NCBI RefSeq assembly: GCF_003144315.1
Contig: NZ_MPDK01000002.1
Location: forward strand, 124,001 to 188,000
Direction of reading: 5' to 3'
Origin: Sulfoacidibacillus thermotolerans
GTDB taxonomy: Bacteria; Bacillota; Bacilli; Alicyclobacillales; SLC66
DNA length: 64,000 nucleotides
The notes under the pieces were generated by a model. That model did not search any database, was not told where the DNA came from, and worked only from the letters and a program-made list of their open reading frames with translations. The stretch's first letter is position 1, and every line of letters starts with the position of its first letter. Positions 30,350 through 53,600 of the stretch are shown piece by piece. The translations under genes and the position numbers were made by a program.

Positions 30350-31333
30350 TCACGCCTCCCCGTGATGATCGTGATGATCGTGATGATCGTGATGATCGTG
30401 ATGATCGTGATGATCGTGATGATCGTGATGATCGTGATGATCGTGATGATCGTGATGATCGTGATGATCGTGATGATCGTGATGATCGTGATGATCGTGA
30501 TGATCGTGATGATCGTGATGATCGTGATCTGATGACACCATTTTGCGGTATTTACATAAATCACAGTTCATAAAAGAGTGACCAATTACTGCTTCTTCGT
30601 ACTGACTCACCACAACATCAAGCAAGAGTGGATGAAATCCAAAATAATGAGCCATCGTCATCGGAATCGCAGGAAACTCTTCTTGAAGCTCAATCAACAC
30701 GTTACGCATCCGCTTAATCAAAATCCCTGTAAATAGAAAATAGGGGACAACAACCACGCGTTTAGCACCTAATGCGATTGCCCTCCTTACTCCGTCGGCA
30801 AAAAGGGGCGTTGTAATGCCAGTAAAACATGTTTCTACTGTCATCGTTTGCGTTCGTTCCCATAATAGACGACCGAGCTTATAAGCATCACCATTTGCAT
30901 CAGGTTCACTGCTGCCGCGGCACATCAAGACAATTGCCGTCTCTTCTTTTGAAAAATCCGGAATTTCTACGATCGCTTCGTTATATCTCATTTCTAAGAG
31001 ATCTACTATCTTTTCATTTAATCCAAGATGACGCCCATAAATAAATTCAATTTGTGGATACTTTTTTCGTGCAGCATCGAGAAATTCAGGAATTTCTAGT
31101 TTTACATGCGACGCGGCGAGCAAGATCACTGGTATGACGATCACTCTTTGTGCACCAAGCTTTGCGCATTGGTCTACCCCATCTGGAATCGTCGGTTCGG
31201 CAAGCTCTAAAAAACAAGAAACGACTTCTCGATCTGCAAATTGCACTTGGAAATTCTTTGCGAAGCGCAAAAACTCTTCATTGCCTTCAACATCTCGACT
31301 GCCGTGTCCTATGAGTAAAATTACTTCCTTCAA
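30350..31333 (-). CDS. cbiX: Sirohydrochlorin cobaltochelatase CbiX with Asp-His-His repeat tail
   Basis: 327 aa from TTG 31333 (AAAGGAGAG 7 nt upstream, and after the riboswitch). Two CbiX halves are present: LLIGHGSRD with the metal-binding His10, and VLMCRGSSEPDANGDAY in the second half. Then comes an M-x-C-x-x-C motif (MNCDLC, Cys257 and Cys260), known in long CbiX proteins to hold an Fe-S cluster. The tail, about residues 269-324, is Asp-His plus 18 Asp-His-His units. It inserts Co2+ into sirohydrochlorin and is the first gene of the operon. The His tail probably stores or delivers metal; the repeat is extreme for the family. Confidence 0.95.
   Translation of the reverse strand: MKEVILLIGHGSRDVEGNEEFLRFAKNFQVQFADREVVSCFLELAEPTIPDGVDQCAKLGAQRVIVIPVILLAASHVKLEIPEFLDAARKKYPQIEFIYGRHLGLNEKIVDLLEMRYNEAIVEIPDFSKEETAIVLMCRGSSEPDANGDAYKLGRLLWERTQTMTVETCFTGITTPLFADGVRRAIALGAKRVVVVPYFLFTGILIKRMRNVLIELQEEFPAIPMTMAHYFGFHPLLLDVVVSQYEEAVIGHSFMNCDLCKYRKMVSSDHDHHDHHDHHDHHDHHDHHDHHDHHDHHDHHDHHDHHDHHDHHDHHDHHDHHDHHGEA
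30361..30528 (-). repeat. Perfect 9-bp tandem repeat inside cbiX
   Basis: About 18.7 copies of CGTGATGAT on the plus strand (168 bp), encoding Asp-His-His on the minus strand. The copies are identical base for base, so recent expansion or active slippage is likely. Frames on the opposite strand here are artefacts of the repeat. Confidence 0.97.
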
Positions 31334-31362
31334 ATTATCTCTCTCCTTTAATGAGCCCATAG

Positions 31363-31395
31363 AAAAAGACACTCCAACTGCCATTCAGAGTGCCC
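31363..31395 (-). terminator. Expression-platform terminator before cbiX
   Basis: On the minus strand GGCACTC and GAGTGTC pair (one G-U) around a 13-nt loop and are followed by TTTTTC. It lies between the riboswitch aptamer and the cbiX start, so cobalamin-dependent premature termination is likely. An antiterminator partner was not found with confidence in the ~85 nt between (31396-31480). Confidence 0.55.
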
Positions 31396-31480
31396 GTGGT
31401 GGACTCGAAGGAGCTACAGCCATCGCTTGTAACACCTTGACTCCAACACATCCCTATCGACCGTAGGTCCTGTGGTGCTA

Positions 31481-31640
31481 AAAAAGGCAGGTCTCCTGAC
31501 TTCGATTCATCATGCATGACGCCCTTCCCAAGTATGTACTCAGTGGATTATCGCCAGCACTCCTCGTTACAGTGGCGGGACCGCACCGGATTCTCACCGG
31601 TTTCCCTTTTAAGTTCACGTCATTGTGAACACCTTTTTCA
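31481..31640 (-). ncRNA. Cobalamin riboswitch
   Basis: Reading the minus strand, the aptamer shows AAAAGGGAAACCGGTGAGAA, then a TCCGGTGCGG box, CCCGCCACTGTAA and the end GAAGTCAGGAGACCTGCC, all standard B12-element blocks. The P1 stem pairs AAAAAGG (31638-31632) with CCTTTTT (31487-31481). It should lower expression of the downstream operon when adenosylcobalamin is plentiful. Confidence 0.95.
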
Positions 31641-31727
31641 TTCTTCAATTATCCTTCTATCTTTTTCCTACCCATTTTCAAACCAATTCAAATGGATACT
31701 TATTACTCTATGATCCTTTTCATTTTC

Positions 31728-34639: not shown

Positions 34640-35290
34640 CTATTGCCGCCAAGGGCCTTCCCACGTCTTCATTTCACGCCACACAAGATCAATCGCTACA
34701 GCATCATCAAGATATCCTAATGGAAAAGAGTAGTCTGGTATGATATCTGTAGCCAAAATGAAGTACAACAATGCACTCCCTACCGTTCGTCTCTGCTCCT
34801 CGGCAAGTTCTTCATTTTGAAAAAGCATATACATTGTTTTTAACTCTTCAAGCACTGGGCCAATCCCTTGAATTTGATTGACTTTCTGATGAAAATCCCG
34901 CAAGATAAGTTCCCTGCCTTCTTGCGTACCCGCATATTCTTTACATTTTCGCAATTCAGATATAATTCGATCCACATCTAATGATTCAAGCTCAGGCAAC
35001 TGATAATGGGGTGCACTACTCGCTTCGCAGCGATCGAGCGTTTGTTCCTGTTCGTTCTGTTCATCATTGAACGTATATCCGGACACGGCCCATAATTCAC
35101 GCAATGAGATTTTCAGTGCGCGCGCCAACATCAGCAGGTGTTCCGGTCGGGGCCGCTGCTTTCCAGAAGCAAGTCGTGAGACAGTCGCTGGATCTACGCC
35201 ACACAGATCTGCTAAACGGCGCATCGATAACCCGCGCTTTGCGAGTTCACTACGCAGAAACAGACCAAATGCATTGTCTTTTTGTGACAT
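34640..35290 (-). CDS. Xre-type HTH regulator fused to DUF1232
   Basis: 216 aa. The N-terminal Cro/C1 HTH (LSMRRLADLCGVDPATVSRLASG) covers about residues 8-70. An acidic linker follows, then a helical C-terminal domain ending ALLYFILATDIIPDYSFPLGYLDDAVAID, the DUF1232 (YkvA) signature, usually a small membrane-linked domain. ATG 35290 has AAGGAGG 7 nt upstream. It is divergent from the Nramp-like gene, with a palindrome at 35310 between, so it probably represses both. DUF1232 has no known function. Confidence 0.85.
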   Translation of the reverse strand: MSQKDNAFGLFLRSELAKRGLSMRRLADLCGVDPATVSRLASGKQRPRPEHLLMLARALKISLRELWAVSGYTFNDEQNEQEQTLDRCEASSAPHYQLPELESLDVDRIISELRKCKEYAGTQEGRELILRDFHQKVNQIQGIGPVLEELKTMYMLFQNEELAEEQRRTVGSALLYFILATDIIPDYSFPLGYLDDAVAIDLVWREMKTWEGPWRQ

Positions 35291-35309
35291 ACATTTTCCT
35301 CCTTACAGC

Positions 35310-35326
35310 GTTGCAAAATTTGCAAC
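35310..35326. promoter_or_regulatory. Palindromic operator candidate
   Basis: GTTGCAAAATTTGCAAC has 8-bp arms around one central base. It lies between the regulator's ribosome binding site and its promoter region. A half-copy TTGCAAC is at 35351-35357, inside the likely -35 (TTGCAA, then 16 nt to GATACT) of the divergent transporter gene. This suits an Xre-type repressor. Confidence 0.6.
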
Positions 35327-35401
35327 AAAGCGCAAATGGTCATGCACTTCTTGCAACGACCACTCATACGGTGATACTGAAGTCTATGAGGGGGAACCGA
35401 T

Positions 35402-36727
35402 ATGACGCAAACGAAATCCCTGCCCGTTTCTTCAGCTACTGGTGAAGATTCTACAACACCCTCGAAATTCCATGCGATTCTCGCGCATCAACGAACAGGA
35501 TGGCGCCGTTATAGCTGGATTCTATGGGCTCTGCTTGGACCTGGTATGCTCGCGATGATTGGAGACAACGACGCGGGCGGTGTGATCGAATACGCAGTCA
35601 CGGGCATTCAATTTGGCATTGGACTGTTCATCCCTTTGATTCTATGCCTTGCACCTCTCACCTTTACCATTCAGGAAATGACGATGCGTCTTAGCGCTGT
35701 GACACAGATTGGTTTTACAAAGCTAGTGTTCCGTCATTTTGGTCGTTTTTTTGGATATTATAGTTTAGCCACGTTAATGATTGAAAATCTACTTACGCTG
35801 ATGACCGAATTTATTGGTATGACAGCAGGTCTCATGATGATGGGTCTACCGCTTTGGGGAAGTGATTTACTCAGTCTGCTGCTCGTGGTTTCACTCGCAA
35901 TTTTTACAGGTTATTGGACGAAAGAGCGACTCGCATTATTTGTCAGTGCACTAAATGCTGTGTTTATCCTCGTCGCTTTTTTAACCCATCCCTCACTGTC
36001 TGCCGTCGCACACGCCTTTACGGCTTGGTCGATCCCCCATCACTTGCAAGGCAGCGTCATTTGGTTTGTCGTAGCAACGGTAGGCAACGCAATTGCACCA
36101 TGGATGATTTTTTTTCAAGGCAGCGCGGCGATTGATAAAGGAATTACTGCCAAGGAACTGCGACTCGGCCGCATTGATACCTTGATTGGCAGTCTCGTAC
36201 AGGTTTTCATCGCAGTCGCCATCGTCCTATGTGGAGCTGTTTTGTATGGGCATATCCAAAATGTGGCGTCTGTAGGGCCGACCGCGATCATTCATGCACT
36301 CTCGAGCAATGTAGGCAGGACAGCTGGCATTCTTTTTGGTTTTGGTCTCTTTAATGCAGGATTTTTAGCTAGTATCACGATTTCCCTCTCTTCTTCCTGG
36401 ACAGTGGCTGATGCATTTGGCTTTGCAAGAAGTCTCAATGACAAGATATCAACAGCTCCAAAATTTTATGCCGTTTATATTGGAAGCCTTGTAGCGGCAG
36501 CAGCAGCTATTTTAGTCCCTGGACTGCCACTCAATTTTATTGCAGTACTATCCCAAGCTTTAGGTGCCATGGTGATGATTCCTATTTTGCTCTTCCTCGT
36601 GATTTTGACGAGCAATCGAGAAATTATGGGTAACTATGCAAATGGGGGGTTCCAGCGGGTGTGGGGCTTTACAATAGCGCTAGTGCTCATCTCCCTAACA
36701 GTCACTTTAGTCATCCAAACTCTTTAG
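35402..36727 (+). CDS. Nramp-superfamily metal transporter, divergent (NRMT-like)
   Basis: 441 aa, about 11 membrane helices. In helix 1 the Mn/Fe Nramp motif DPGN is replaced by DNDAGG (GPGMLAMIGDNDAGG), and in helix 6 the usual metal-binding Met is absent (NAIAPWMIFFQGSAAIDKG has APW in its place). Loss of these ligands is described for Nramp-related proteins that carry Mg2+ or Mn2+ rather than Fe2+. The substrate here is therefore uncertain. GAGGGGG lies 6 nt before the ATG. It is likely under the divergent HTH-DUF1232 protein. Confidence 0.85.
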   Translation: MTQTKSLPVSSATGEDSTTPSKFHAILAHQRTGWRRYSWILWALLGPGMLAMIGDNDAGGVIEYAVTGIQFGIGLFIPLILCLAPLTFTIQEMTMRLSAVTQIGFTKLVFRHFGRFFGYYSLATLMIENLLTLMTEFIGMTAGLMMMGLPLWGSDLLSLLLVVSLAIFTGYWTKERLALFVSALNAVFILVAFLTHPSLSAVAHAFTAWSIPHHLQGSVIWFVVATVGNAIAPWMIFFQGSAAIDKGITAKELRLGRIDTLIGSLVQVFIAVAIVLCGAVLYGHIQNVASVGPTAIIHALSSNVGRTAGILFGFGLFNAGFLASITISLSSSWTVADAFGFARSLNDKISTAPKFYAVYIGSLVAAAAAILVPGLPLNFIAVLSQALGAMVMIPILLFLVILTSNREIMGNYANGGFQRVWGFTIALVLISLTVTLVIQTL

Positions 36728-46932: not shown

Positions 46933-49900
46933 TCATAAAGTCAGTAATCTCTCTACAGCAACTGCCTTTCTACTATTTACAAAATACAAGTAGGATGTGC
47001 TTATCGACCGCATAAAAGCGCCTTCCATCGCCTTTTTATATAGTGCGAGTTGCAGTGCATACTCTTTTACAAGCGCAGATTCATCTCTTATCGATAATTG
47101 ATCCGTTTTATAATCCACTAAGATCATACGTTCGTCAAGAGCAATCAGGCAATCGACAGTTCCTTGGATAATTACTTGTTCACCACGCCCTGAAAAAAGT
47201 TGCGGTTGTTGATCAATCAAGTGCTCCGCCGCTACAGCTAAAGTAAAGGGGACTTCTCTCCATACTTTGTCTGAATTTGCGATCATCAGTTGGCCAAGCG
47301 AAGATTGAAAATACGCTGCAATCAGTTCAGGTTGCAAATATTGCAAGGAATTTTCAGGGAGATATCCTTGCCGTACTAATCGTTGCAATTCTGTAACAAC
47401 TCCTGCCTCCTCTACAAGTTGCTCAATCAAAGGAAGATGTTGCATCGCTAAATGAAACAAGCTCCCCTTTTCCGCTGCAGTAAGTGGCATGTCTTGTTGC
47501 AAAAAGCGTGGTCGCGAAAACTGTACATTGCGCTTTAAACGCTGCCAAGAAATACTTGTCTCAGTTTCTTCAGAATGATCCATCCAGTTGTTTTTCCACT
47601 CTGTCACGCTCATTTTTGCAGCAAGCGGATTTCCTTGGTCAATAGGTCGCCAAAGATGAGCCAATACATGTTCTTGCCACATCGTTGACTTAGCAACGTC
47701 GATCGCATCTGCGTCAAAAGCTCCTGGCTCCAGGGACGAAATAGCCTGCCAATCGCGTTGTACACACTGCTCTTCCTCTTTGCCCGCGATTGTTTGGCCA
47801 AAATCCTCTCCCCATAGTTTTACAGTAAAGAGTGGGGAACCCGCTTGCGAAAAGCGATAGATTGCTGGACCGATCCAATCAAAATAATGTTTTGCACTTA
47901 GCAAAAGGGATTCGCGCAAAGGACCTTGTCGACTTGTTTCAAAGCGTGCTGTCGCGCGCCACTTGTCCCAATGTGCAGAAAGGTTTTTAAGCGCACCTAT
48001 AAAAATCAACTTCTCCTTTGCACGCGTCGCTGCCACATATAAAATACGAGCTTCTTCTGCGAGATTGTAACGTTTTTCTAATGTATCGACTGCCAGAGAT
48101 GACAAGGTACGCCATTTCTCCTTACGCTCGAGATCCACAAAATCAATACCAAAACCAATGTCCTTTTGAAAGCGAATGGGTAATCCATGATCACTAAGCC
48201 GAAAGCTCTTGGTCATGTTTACTACGAAAACAACGGGAAACTCCAACCCTTTACTTTTATGAATCGTCATGATACGTACGACATTTGCTACTTCCGATGC
48301 ATTTTTTGCTAACCCGACATCTCCAGAACGCCGATCATGTTCTTGTATATATTTTACAAACCCAGAGAACCCATGACCTTCTAAGTCGTCATATGCTCGC
48401 GCTTGACGGATGAATTGCCTGAGGTTCGCTTGACGCACATCGCCATCTTGCAGCCCAGCCACAAAATCAGATAACCCTGTTTCCTCTAGCGCAAACCGAA
48501 CGGTATCCTCTACGCTATGCAAGCTTGCATAAGTACGGAGACGTTCGAGATGCAAGAGAAACTGTTGCACGCGAAATCCTAATTCATCATTTTGGCGACT
48601 TCGTTGGTAAAGTGCTTGAAATAGATCGCCACGCGCCATGGTGAGACGTATTTGTCCTAGATCAGTAGTTGAAAAACCCCCAACAGGGGAGCGCAATACC
48701 GTCGCGAGTGGAATGTCTTGTCGTGGGTTATCGATCGTTTGCAGCAAGGCGAGTACGAAGCGCATTTCCAAACTCGTATAAAACCCACTATTCGATTCTC
48801 CATCGCAAGGAATACCAAGTTGTCGAAAGACACGCAGCAGGATGTCGCTGCGCCCAGCTTGTGATCGCAATAAAATCGCGATATCTCGCCACTGAAGTGG
48901 ACGGTATGCATTTTCTGAAGGATCAAAAATTGGCGTTTCACTCTCGTACAGACGTAAAATTTCTTGGCCGGCAACCCATGCTTCTCGTTCGAGCAAATGC
49001 TGATCTCGCAAATCCTCTTCTCTATTGCTAGCATTCGCTTCATCCTCTGGCTCCTGCTCATCTTCACCTTCTTGTAGAAATTCCATTTCATCAGATGACG
49101 AAGAATTGGAATCGATAAGATGAACATCTACCGCTGTCATACCCTGTTGCAGTGGGCGAGGTGGATAAGTTGCAGCCGCATTCATGCGTGCCCCTTCATC
49201 ATACGAAATCCCTCCTAACACCGGCGCAAAAATCTGACTGAAGAGATAGTTAATCGCATCAATTAGGTCTGTACGACTGCGATAATTATCCTGCAAATCA
49301 ATTCGCACTCCGCCATCTTCATGCTTAAAGGACTCATATTTACTCAGAAACAAACCAGGTTCTGCCATGCGAAAACCATAGATACTCTGTTTCACATCTC
49401 CCACGTAAAACAGATTTGATCGATCAGAATTTGCAATTTGCTCTAGAATTGCATCTTGAATCGGACTTGTATCTTGATATTCATCTACAAGTACCTGCAC
49501 ATATTTTTGCGCAAATTGCCGAGCTAATGAGGAGGCTGCACCACGTTCATCTACCAGGAGTTGGAAAGCAAAGTGCTCAAGATCTGCAAAATCAACACAA
49601 CTGCGATCACGTTTTGCCGCTTCGTAGCTCGTATGAAATTGCCAGACTAAATCAACAAGCATTTGCACATATGGTGTTATCAATGTGAGCTCCGCTTGCA
49701 ATTCATGCTCACTGCGAGCAAAAATTGAGTGCAAAAGCAATCCGATGATTTTCTTCACACGACTGCGTAGATCTTGAATATTTTTTTTTAAAAGAGCATC
49801 AGCTTCTTTTACCTGTCCAAGTTTTACAAAAGGCTGCGCGAGACAGACACGAAGTTCGTCATAATCCCTTTTTTCAGCATAGGAAAGAGCATTCTCTAAC

Positions 49901-50668: not shown

Positions 50669-53600
50669 TCAACCTTTCTTTTTATCGATACATAGTTTTT
50701 GTAAAATCTCCTTCCCGTTGATTTTGGGCAATTGATGATATGATCCAAGACCACCACTTTCTTCAAATTGACAGATACCTTGAAATGAACAGTGCTGACA
50801 AGCCGTGTTTTTCTTATATCGATAGGGGGCGATCGCCGTATCGCCTTTACGAACCCGATTCATAAAAGAGACAGCGAGATGCTTTGCGTGGTGTTTTAAC
50901 GCCTCCCACTCCTTGTCGTCGACAGTTTGCACCGATCGTTTAAATTGTCCGTCTTTTTTTAGCAGCACGGGAAAAAGATCATCTGCCACAGCATTTTTCC
51001 GATCAAGCAAAGACACAAGTTTCGGTTCGCGCAAAATTAATCCTTTCATTTGTAACGCCTTGCGCTTTGTCCGCTCCACTTCGCGAATTGGCGTTGGCGC
51101 ATCCACCTGCTTTACTAGATCGCGAATTGGATAATAGAATACCCCTGCAAACTTATGTGGATGGCCAAACCACTCTATACTTTGTTGTTCGACAACTTCT
51201 GCATACAAAATAAGCTGTAGTGAAAGTCCGTAATACACCTGTTCTAGATTCAGACTACGTTCACTACTTTTATAGTCAATGATACGAAAATAAGGATATC
51301 TATCACCAGCAGATGTATCTAGTCGATCGATACGTCCACGCAAGCGCAAAGGCAGATCTCCTGGTAGCGCAAATTCAAATTCAGCTTCTGTCAAGTAAAC
51401 TTGAAAGGAACTGCGATGGGCATGTTCTGTAAGTGTGTCAATGGCACGCAAAAGTGCTTGGCGCACCTGCTCTAGTTGATTGCGAAAACGCGCATTATGC
51501 CTCCACACGATACGATTGTCTGCAGTAAGTACACTTGCAAAGACCTGGTTCAAAATTTGAAACGCCTGATGAGAATCTAAACTTCCCCAATCAACACCTT
51601 CTTTTTTTATCCAGACAACAAACTGGTGAAGTACCTCGTGAACCAATTGTCCGCGAATCAATTCGTCAATTTGAAATTCTTCGCGTCGCTTTAATCGCAA
51701 GCCATACTTTGCAAAATGCGCAAATGGACAAGCCGCAAACTGTTCTAAACGCGACACTGACAAAACCTCGGCATTATGAAACAACTTTTGTGCGATTTCT
51801 GGAGCAAGTGGCTCACTATCGATCACATAAGCAAGTCCTTGTAATTTAGACTTTACTACCTCTTGATTCAATTTTCCCGAAGCAAAAAGTTGAAAAACAC
51901 CATGCCATAAAGGTGTCAGCCGTTCACCTTTTTTAACTTCGCGCAAAATGGTTGTCAAATGCTGGGCCATCGACTCCTCTGTCATACATAATTGTACATC
52001 TTCCTCATCATTCCACTGTGGCTGATCAATGTAGTTGTATTCGATCATTTGTTCAGGCGCAAATCGGCTGATCATCTGCTGTAAAATCGTTGCCATAGCA
52101 AGCGCACGCCCGTTCTCATCTGCAAGCGCATAGGAGAGCACCAGTTTTTTCTGTGCGCGTGTCATCGCCATATATACGCGATAACGTTCATACACTTGTT
52201 GTCGACTGCTCTCTGGATTTATAGAAAATCCCTTTGTGATTAACTGTTTGCGTTCCTCGTCAGAAAACATTTCGTCGTTCTCAATCCGCCGCGGAAACAA
52301 TCCATCATTGCAACCTATCAGAAAACCATACTGCACTTCATAAGCGCGAACGCGCGAAACTTCAGTAATGATGATTTGATCGAGTAACATCGGGATGACA
52401 CCGATCCTGCTGCTACCAAACGCCTGCCGCAATAGAGCAAGAACCCGTGCAACTGGCAACTTGCGCTCGCCAAACGCATAGACAAGATCGTCACATAGTG
52501 TAATTGCATGCACAAGTGCACGTTCATGCGCTTGTGCATCAAACGTATTGTCGGAAGCTTCTTCACGCTCGATGAGAGCCGAGATCTGCCCCGGGACATC
52601 ACAACTTTCTAGCAAATTCCACAGCGCCGTAATCATTTGGCGCACAGTACTATCTGTAGACTGAAACACCTGGTAAAAAGGGAGGAGCCATGACGCAACG
52701 CGACTTCGCACAGCTTCTATCTCACTTTTGAATTCTTTATAATTCGTAAGCTCAAACGAGATTAACCACTCTTCTCCTTCAATACCATTTAAAAGTACAA
52801 AGTTTTCTAATTGATCCACTGCAAAGCGCGGAATTGGCGTCAAATCCGTTTTTAACCACTCAATGATCGCTTGACTAGATAGTTGGGACTCTATAATCGA
52901 TAAGGCGTGCAAGATAAAGCGGGCAACGGGATGGTGACGCATTGAGTGCAACTCATCCATAAAAAAGGGAATTTTCGCTTGTTGTAACACTTCTCGTAAC
53001 AAGGGACGATAAAGATCGAGATTCGTCACCATCAATGTAAATTCACGCCATGGCACCTGTTCCTCACGGTGTATTCGCAACATCTCTCTTATTGTTCCAA
53101 GTACTTCCGCCCTCCTTGTTGTCGCTTTTGCTATGACCAAATCCCCGCGCTCTGCAGATGTATAAAAAGGAGCTTCCGATTCTTCTGGCAAAGTAAAGAT
53201 CGCTTTTTCTAAGTGATTCAAACGAGGACTTGCAGTAAATCGCCATAATTTATTTCCTTGTGTATTTACAATGTGAAGGGTTCGCTGTTTTTGATCTGCC
53301 AGTTTACGCAAGTGCAAAAAAGTGTCATCTGCTTGTGCAAATGGTGAATCGAGTTCATCAACCCGTGCAAATCCAGTGCGCGCTAATTCATTCGCTCGTT
53401 CCAATGGCAACGTCAAACTGACACTCATATTTTCCACATGTTCAAAAAGTGCACCTAAAAGTGAGAATTCTTGTGCAGTAAACCCGAGGAATCCATCCAC
53501 ATAAATCTGTGCTGACCTTAAGCTCCCTATTCGATGCAATTCTCGAGCAAACAGCGGCAAAAGATGAAGAGGATCGATAAAGCGATCTTGCAGCGCGCGT

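Follow-up and report, generated by a model that had tools for sequence, protein, structure and literature searches.

A conserved HTH-DUF1232 regulator, its predicted palindromic operator and an NRMT-like transporter as a candidate control unit for metal-ion transport

How is the Nramp-family transporter gene of Sulfoacidibacillus thermotolerans that lies back to back with an HTH-DUF1232 regulator gene controlled, and to which signal might the pair respond? A preliminary description of the window (the whole 64,000-nucleotide stretch analysed here, positions 124,001 to 188,000 of contig NZ_MPDK01000002.1) had proposed that regulator, palindrome and metal transporter form a compact control unit. 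The perfect palindrome and the half-copy that it placed in the 111-bp divergent spacer (35291-35401) were both found there (O1 and O2 in Table 1), and the unit as such holds up in comparison, with pairing and operator both recurring in other genomes. Convergent with the regulator gene lies a beta-aspartyl-peptidase gene (TIGR01975; 33205-34539, + strand) encoding an acidic and basic C-terminal tail; this neighbour was seen beside the regulator only in three genomes of the same genus. Elsewhere in the window (30350-31384 and 31469-31651, both - strand), an ORF that looks by eye like CbiX finishes with a long stretch of His-Asp repeats; upstream of it is a cobalamin riboswitch, and ORFs resembling cobalamin genes adjoin it.

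Table 1 Features of the regulator-transporter locus (window coordinates)
Feature	Position	Strand	Basis
HTH-DUF1232 regulator gene, 216 aa	34640-35290	-	Pfam HTH_3 and DUF1232 above cut-off; relatives found
HTH_3 DNA-binding domain, residues 12-66	35093-35257	-	Pfam
DUF1232 core, residues 169-200	34691-34786	-	Pfam; invariant columns among 56 proteins
Predicted operator O1, GTTGCAAAATTTGCAAC, member of the GTTG-N9-CAAC family	35310-35326	.	Perfect 17-bp palindrome; comparative evidence
Candidate half-site O2, TTGCAAC	35351-35357	+	Sequence; recurrence in relatives' spacers
Conserved GCACTT block, -35-like, 17 bp past O1	35344-35349	+	Spacing common to relatives
TACGGT, -10-like, 17 bp past GCACTT	35367-35372	+	Sequence; spacing in relatives
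NRMT-like transporter gene (DxxG-NxxA clade), 441 aa	35402-36727	+	Pfam Nramp; 7qia E 2e-49
Helix-1 ion site DAGG, residues 57-60	35570-35581	+	Alignment; motif definition from the accessible part of PMC8806188
Helix-6 ion site NAIA, residues 229-232 (EleNRMT: Thr224-x-x-Ala227)	36086-36097	+	Alignment

We read this locus as an autoregulated, repressor-type control module for divalent-cation transport, most likely of Mg2+, and on the comparative evidence below we give this reading about an even chance (roughly 0.5). The HTH-DUF1232 protein, presumably as a dimer, would bind the O1 palindrome (GTTG-N9-CAAC) and, more weakly, half-site O2, about three helical turns off and inside the transporter promoter; once bound, it would repress both its own gene and the transporter gene. 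The likely signal receiver is the all-helical C-terminal domain with its invariant D182-x3-D186...D195-D196: with sufficient cytosolic cation the regulator would stay bound, and with scarce cation it would release the DNA, so that the NRMT-like importer would be made. Comparison of genomes and spacers supports the gene pairing, the operator, the absence of the operator where the regulator is absent, the position of the operator over the -35 box of the regulator gene itself, seen in five relatives, and, for some members of the family, a linkage to M-box magnesium genes.

That such regulators stand beside Nramp-like genes more widely than in this one locus is well supported by sequence comparison. 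Near-full-length HTH-DUF1232 matches (E < 1e-30) in 61 genomes, including that of S. thermotolerans, amounted to 24 genes spread over 22 genomes, and the transporter adjoins 22 of these 24 genes, divergently in 21 cases and in the same direction in one (G031); in G007 the contig ends after the first part of the transporter gene. The exceptions are one gene in G012 (contig C198) and one of three regulator copies in G057. Counted in reverse, 30 transporter relatives (49-100% identity) have the regulator adjacent in 21 cases and absent in 8, with one at a contig end (G012:C10); two of the eight genomes with a regulator-less transporter are 65% and 83% complete and the others 91-100%.

A scan of named genomes, restricted to the best 80 of 200 loci, six of which coincide with loci of the 61-genome set, refines the proposed pairing: it recurs, and yet the regulators are here more often divergent from ytaF (52 loci) than from the transporter (9), the divergent partner being an LCP gene in one locus and none being detected in 18. 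Within these 18, a partner in another orientation is present in some, with the transporter downstream in L061, L078 and L093 and YtaF beside the regulator in L071 and L089; one of the 52 ytaF-partner loci also has mgtE nearby. The ytaF counts come from tblastn, and one representative partner was recognised as spore_YtaF (195.9 bits vs 149.6). A rapid tree of 56 regulators, weak at many forks, calls for at least three changes between NRMT-like and YtaF partners. Variants of the arrangement were also seen. At L044, L051, L075, L077, L079 and L097, two HTH-DUF1232 genes flank ytaF, and the locus also has an LCP gene close by and an mgtE gene accompanied by an M-box. Alicyclobacillus fastidiosus carries an extra HTH-DUF1232 copy (L036:6001-6633) with no operator match upstream, whose neighbour is a second HTH-DUF1232 member that adjoins the transporter. 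The YtaF partners at L039:5236-5865 and L063:5222-5857 contain a mid-protein EF-hand-like loop, DxDxSGxIxxxE.

Taken by itself, the symmetry of O1 is unremarkable against chance. The window contains two perfect 8+1+8 palindromes, and 20 mononucleotide shuffles gave a mean of 1.25 and a maximum of 4. Allowing up to three mismatches, the O1 word has three matches in the window, a number reached by 7 of 100 shuffles; in the whole 2.87-Mb genome the exact word is found a single time, and with two mismatches it occurs at nine further places (one of them the window copy at 47331) compared with 2 for a control pattern. The two-mismatch copy at 47331 and the three-mismatch copy at 51547 were rejected as operators, as they fall inside ORFs of 1277 and 1152 aa, respectively. 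It is conservation in the spacers of related loci, and not symmetry, that raises O1 above chance. From 81 divergent spacers, 76 of them different, we kept 54 with limited sharing of 6-mers (19 transporter and 35 ytaF spacers), and exact GTTG-N9-CAAC was present in 28 of these non-redundant spacers (shuffles about 0.2): 9/19 transporter spacers (200 shuffles, mean 0.08, maximum 1) and 19/35 ytaF spacers (mean 0.125, maximum 3). Requiring at least 7 of the 8 operator letters gave 15/19 (shuffle mean 1.7, maximum 6) and 27/35 (mean 3.1, maximum 8), respectively. When the gap was varied from N3 to N15, N9 yielded 28 matches, N8 four, N11 one and all other gaps none.

Within 400 bp upstream of the regulator, the 80 named loci carry the exact operator in 38 cases, a relaxed one in 58 and none in 22, and the exact form is 38 times as dense there as in the rest of the same loci. 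Its letters vary by lineage: the window's genus has GTTGC...GCAAC, some other members of the order have GTTTCG...CGCAAC, and loci with ytaF mostly have GTTGA...TCAAC. Upstream of the regulator-less transporter relatives (up to 1.2 kb searched, with 0.8-2.5 kb present), GTTG-N9-CAAC was found in 0/8; a looser pattern gave loose matches in three of the eight. O1 is thus well supported, at the level of sequence, as one case of a family operator GTTG-N9-CAAC and as a predicted binding site.

We then turn to what the transporter might carry. It is a member of the Nramp family (Pfam Nramp, E 3e-50); as a refinement of the earlier label, it is NRMT-like, with magnesium transporters as its near relatives, and no classical Nramp. 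Among solved structures only 7qia matches it significantly (E 2e-49, against 1.8 for the second-best), and we take 7qia to be EleNRMT because the D55, G58, T224 and Q379 of that chain bear the numbers used in the accessible part of PMC8806188. In the same part of that paper, classical Nramps are defined by DxxN-A/CxxM and NRMTs by DxxG-TxxA/T. The window transporter has the NRMT-type DxxG on helix 1 (DAGG) and NAIA instead of TxxA/T on helix 6, with Asp57, Gly60, Ala232 and Gln385 aligned with EleNRMT Asp55, Gly58, Ala227 and Gln379. Because Asn replaces Thr on helix 6, we file the transporter as NRMT-like and not as an NRMT. Classical MntH was considered and rejected (NCBIfam MntH score 77.7 vs a cut-off of 430; DAGG/NAIA without the helix-1 Asn or the helix-6 Met).

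The substitution is common to the whole clade. Among 43 rows of close relatives (>47% identity), some of them duplicates of a gene listed under two locus ids, 40 show the helix-6 site, and all 40 read N-A-x-A; 31 more distant rows comprise 28 with DAGG/TTxA and 3 with DAPS/ATIT. Nine relatives fetched for having no visible adjacent regulator also read N-A-x-A, so that the change from Thr to Asn marks the transporter clade rather than the link to the regulator. With Asn in place of the Thr ligand throughout the clade, Mg2+ is not assured as the cargo. Nor is the Nramp family label alone proof of a metal substrate, since PxpT/YcsG, of the NRAMP family, is required for 5-oxoproline uptake and use according to the accessible text of PMC13274462. 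S. thermotolerans itself encodes a third Nramp-like paralogue (L193; G000:C70:79000-81600) with a DGPS/ATIT ion site, which could belong to an oxoproline-type group.

Riboswitches near the regulators point towards magnesium in part of the family. NrmT genes are associated with M-box control and magnesium transport in the portion of PMC4072509 available to us. One M-box was found in the S. thermotolerans genome under stricter filters, and it precedes an NRMT paralogue of the Thr type (TTIA); none was found at the window locus, and the cobalamin riboswitch was the only one above threshold in the window. The order regulator, transporter, M-box, TTIA paralogue is shared by six genomes of genus g10, and in 8 of 22 genomes the regulator has an M-box no more than 2.5 kb away. 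Of the 80 named loci, 8 have mgtE near the regulator, each of them with an M-box; unselected loci, mostly from Paenibacillus, had an M-box in 0/12. In the scan covering the window and 56 loci, M-boxes passed the threshold and Mn2+ riboswitches did not. We infer that Mg2+ probably serves as both signal and cargo and that DUF1232 may act as the sensor.

It is possible, if doubtful, that the ion is not Mg2+ but some other cation, be it Mn2+, Ca2+ or a trace metal, in which case the Asn-type clade would have changed its substrate and the regulator would sense that ion. The exchange of Thr for Asn at the ion site would fit such a change, as would the presence in the same genome of an M-box-linked Thr-type paralogue and the nature of the YtaF partners, which we take to be MntP-like and two of which carry the EF-hand-like loop. 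Asn is nevertheless still an oxygen ligand, the other four aligned positions agree with EleNRMT, and the riboswitch scan of the window and 56 loci returned M-boxes and no Mn2+ riboswitch. If YtaF, the commonest partner, is indeed MntP-like and binds Ca2+, as has been proposed, a single scheme of repressed import may not hold for all members of the family. The proposal of Ca2+ binding by YtaF is made in the accessible part of PMC9332280.

The arrangement of O1, O2 and the promoter bears on the direction of control. Of 45 operator-bearing spacers, 21 have GCAC 17 bp past O1 and another 4 have it 18 bp past O1, and all 25 of these have TAnnnT 16-18 bp after GCACnn; in the other 20, GCAC lies elsewhere (5) or was not found (15). 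Considered as a 17-mer ending at 35357, O2 has its centre 31 bp from that of O1, and 12/42 spacers (shuffles 0.35) have a second [TG]CAAC whose dyad is 31-33 bp away from that of O1. The base preceding CAAC is the same in O1 and O2 in 17/21 cases, a weak agreement because 15 of them are T/T. Among the eight regulator-less transporter relatives, [TG]CAAC is found in none within the last 125 bases before the gene, and GCACnn-N17-TAnnnT is kept just upstream in seven; with the operator in 0/8 and the promoter in 7/8, the operator occurs with the regulator and the promoter also without it. In these regulator-less genes (L182, L183 and L185-L189) the -35 element matches no nameable sigma consensus, and sigma-54, SigE and SigK were set aside, none fitting well. 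In L086, L089, L092, L098 and L105, the TTGAC-type -35 of the regulator gene falls inside the operator and is followed, 17-18 bp on, by a TATATT-like -10, a layout that suggests autorepression in these five; for the window regulator gene, sequence search and inspection by eye resolved no promoter. From these autoregulatory sites in relatives, together with the half-site in part of the promoters, we infer that repression of the transporter is likely. Among the points that count against the main reading are the absence of even the relaxed operator from 22/80 loci, the presence of O2 in just 12/42 spacers and the 8 of 30 close transporter relatives that have no regulator next to them.

Could the regulator instead repress its own gene and activate the transporter from O1, with the half-site being incidental? 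Counted from the start that the -10-like box suggests, the O1 centre lies at about -61, where class I activators are known to bind; the phasing of O1 to the core promoter is fixed, the GCACTT block is a poor -35 that departs from TTGACA, and O2 is missing from most spacers. We nonetheless think activation rather improbable, because the promoter seems to work unaided, being kept without O1 in seven of the eight regulator-less relatives. Moreover, [TG]CAAC is lacking in all eight while O2 recurs at a fixed distance in regulated genes, and the operator overlaps a -35 box in some family members.

The regulator protein combines an HTH_3 domain (E 5e-13, 49.3 bits vs a Pfam cut-off of 23) with DUF1232 (E 1e-9, 38.2 bits vs 23), and no DtxR or Fur family is among its Pfam matches. 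An earlier suggestion that DUF1232 serves as a membrane anchor is weakened, as the best 19-residue hydropathy of the window protein is 1.24; a value of at least 1.6 is reached by 14 of 56 aligned relatives. Residues D182, P185, D186, P190, G192, D195 and D196 of the DUF1232 core, plus eight others, are invariant among 56 proteins, and from the invariant Asp letters one may guess at a carboxylate cation site. The AlphaFold model (mean pLDDT 77.5, pTM 0.50) is all helical in its C-terminal part, with a pLDDT below 50 in the conserved-Asp loop 183-191. A Foldseek search of the model against the PDB gave nothing at E ≤0.001, and among the 50 matches listed (E ≥0.0012) those that could be placed were HTH proteins aligned by the HTH domain. 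In the open-access literature, we found no paper on regulators of the HTH-DUF1232 type or joining DUF1232 to a helix-turn-helix or to Nramp; papers naming DUF1232 were, by title, plant RING-gene surveys, YkvA papers contained none on such regulators as judged by title and the start of the abstract, the passages of a riboswitch survey that the search returned had no bearing on them, and combined queries led to the NrmT and PxpT papers, to genome or regulon papers and to one on a streptococcal operon.

It also seems unlikely that the signal is a non-metal one, such as sporulation or the state of the envelope, with the transporter as one of several envelope genes controlled. The neighbours do include ytaF, a sporulation gene, and cell-wall genes, namely LCP and what are, from their sequences, presumably RodA/FtsW-like genes; yet the transporter adjoins nearly all regulator genes in the 61 genomes (22/24), and both main partners fall in divalent-cation families, the transporter by its 7qia match and YtaF partly by presumption and partly by the Ca2+ proposal cited above. 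Least convincing is an organic solute as cargo and signal, as proposed for PxpT/YcsG (5-oxoproline), since, despite the precedent of an NRAMP-family protein without which 5-oxoproline is not used and whose gene is under a divergently encoded repressor and a 17-bp inverted repeat (PMC13274462, in its accessible part), no oxoprolinase genes were recognised by eye among the ORFs listed around the locus, the NRMT-type ion-site letters are kept except Thr224, and there is the linkage to M-box genes.

Extended from the locus to the family, the repressor reading tentatively suggests that HTH-DUF1232 proteins may form a widespread group of cytosolic repressors in Firmicutes that bind DNA in response to Mg2+ and so do as proteins what the M-box does as RNA; in them, DUF1232 would sense a divalent cation (probably Mg2+), GTTG-N9-CAAC would be the operator, and NRMT-like importers and YtaF would be the main targets. 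Bacterial control of Mg2+ is generally described as acting mainly through the M-box, PhoPQ and channel gating (see also PMC4072509). If the suggestion is true, protein-based control by Mg2+ or another divalent cation in Firmicutes becomes directly testable, and DUF1232 and YtaF gain a functional frame. The clade-wide change from Thr to Asn provides a natural experiment on how NRMT-like proteins select their ions, and the recurring unit of regulator, palindrome and transporter suggests a little-known mode of control over metal-ion transport.

Among known systems, the transporter resembles the NRMTs (CabNRMT and EleNRMT; PMC4072509 and PMC8806188, as far as their accessible parts go) in its NRAMP family membership, helix-1 DAGG, helix-6 Ala in place of the metal-binding Met and Trp after the helix-6 Pro; it differs in the Asn at EleNRMT position 224, seen in every visible row of its clade (40/40), and in a gene that stands beside a regulator and operator with no M-box found upstream. 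The M-box is likewise found beside NRMT-type and mgtE genes, including the Thr-type paralogue of the same genome, but it is an RNA device and none was found at the window locus. With mntH under MntR or Fur the locus shares a regulator that is predicted to act on an Nramp-family gene, whereas the window transporter scores far below the MntH cut-off (77.7 vs 430) and the window regulator is of the HTH_3 type. XRE/Cro-CI repressors have in common with it the HTH_3 domain, a palindromic operator (here predicted) and divergent genes, and the window regulator is set apart from them by its C-terminal DUF1232-type domain. In PxpR-pxpT of Corynebacterium glutamicum, as described in the accessible part of PMC13274462, the genes for a repressor and an NRAMP-family protein likewise diverge from a spacer that contains a 17-bp inverted repeat; PxpR, in contrast, is GntR-type with 5-oxoproline as its ligand, and its genes are linked to oxoprolinase genes.
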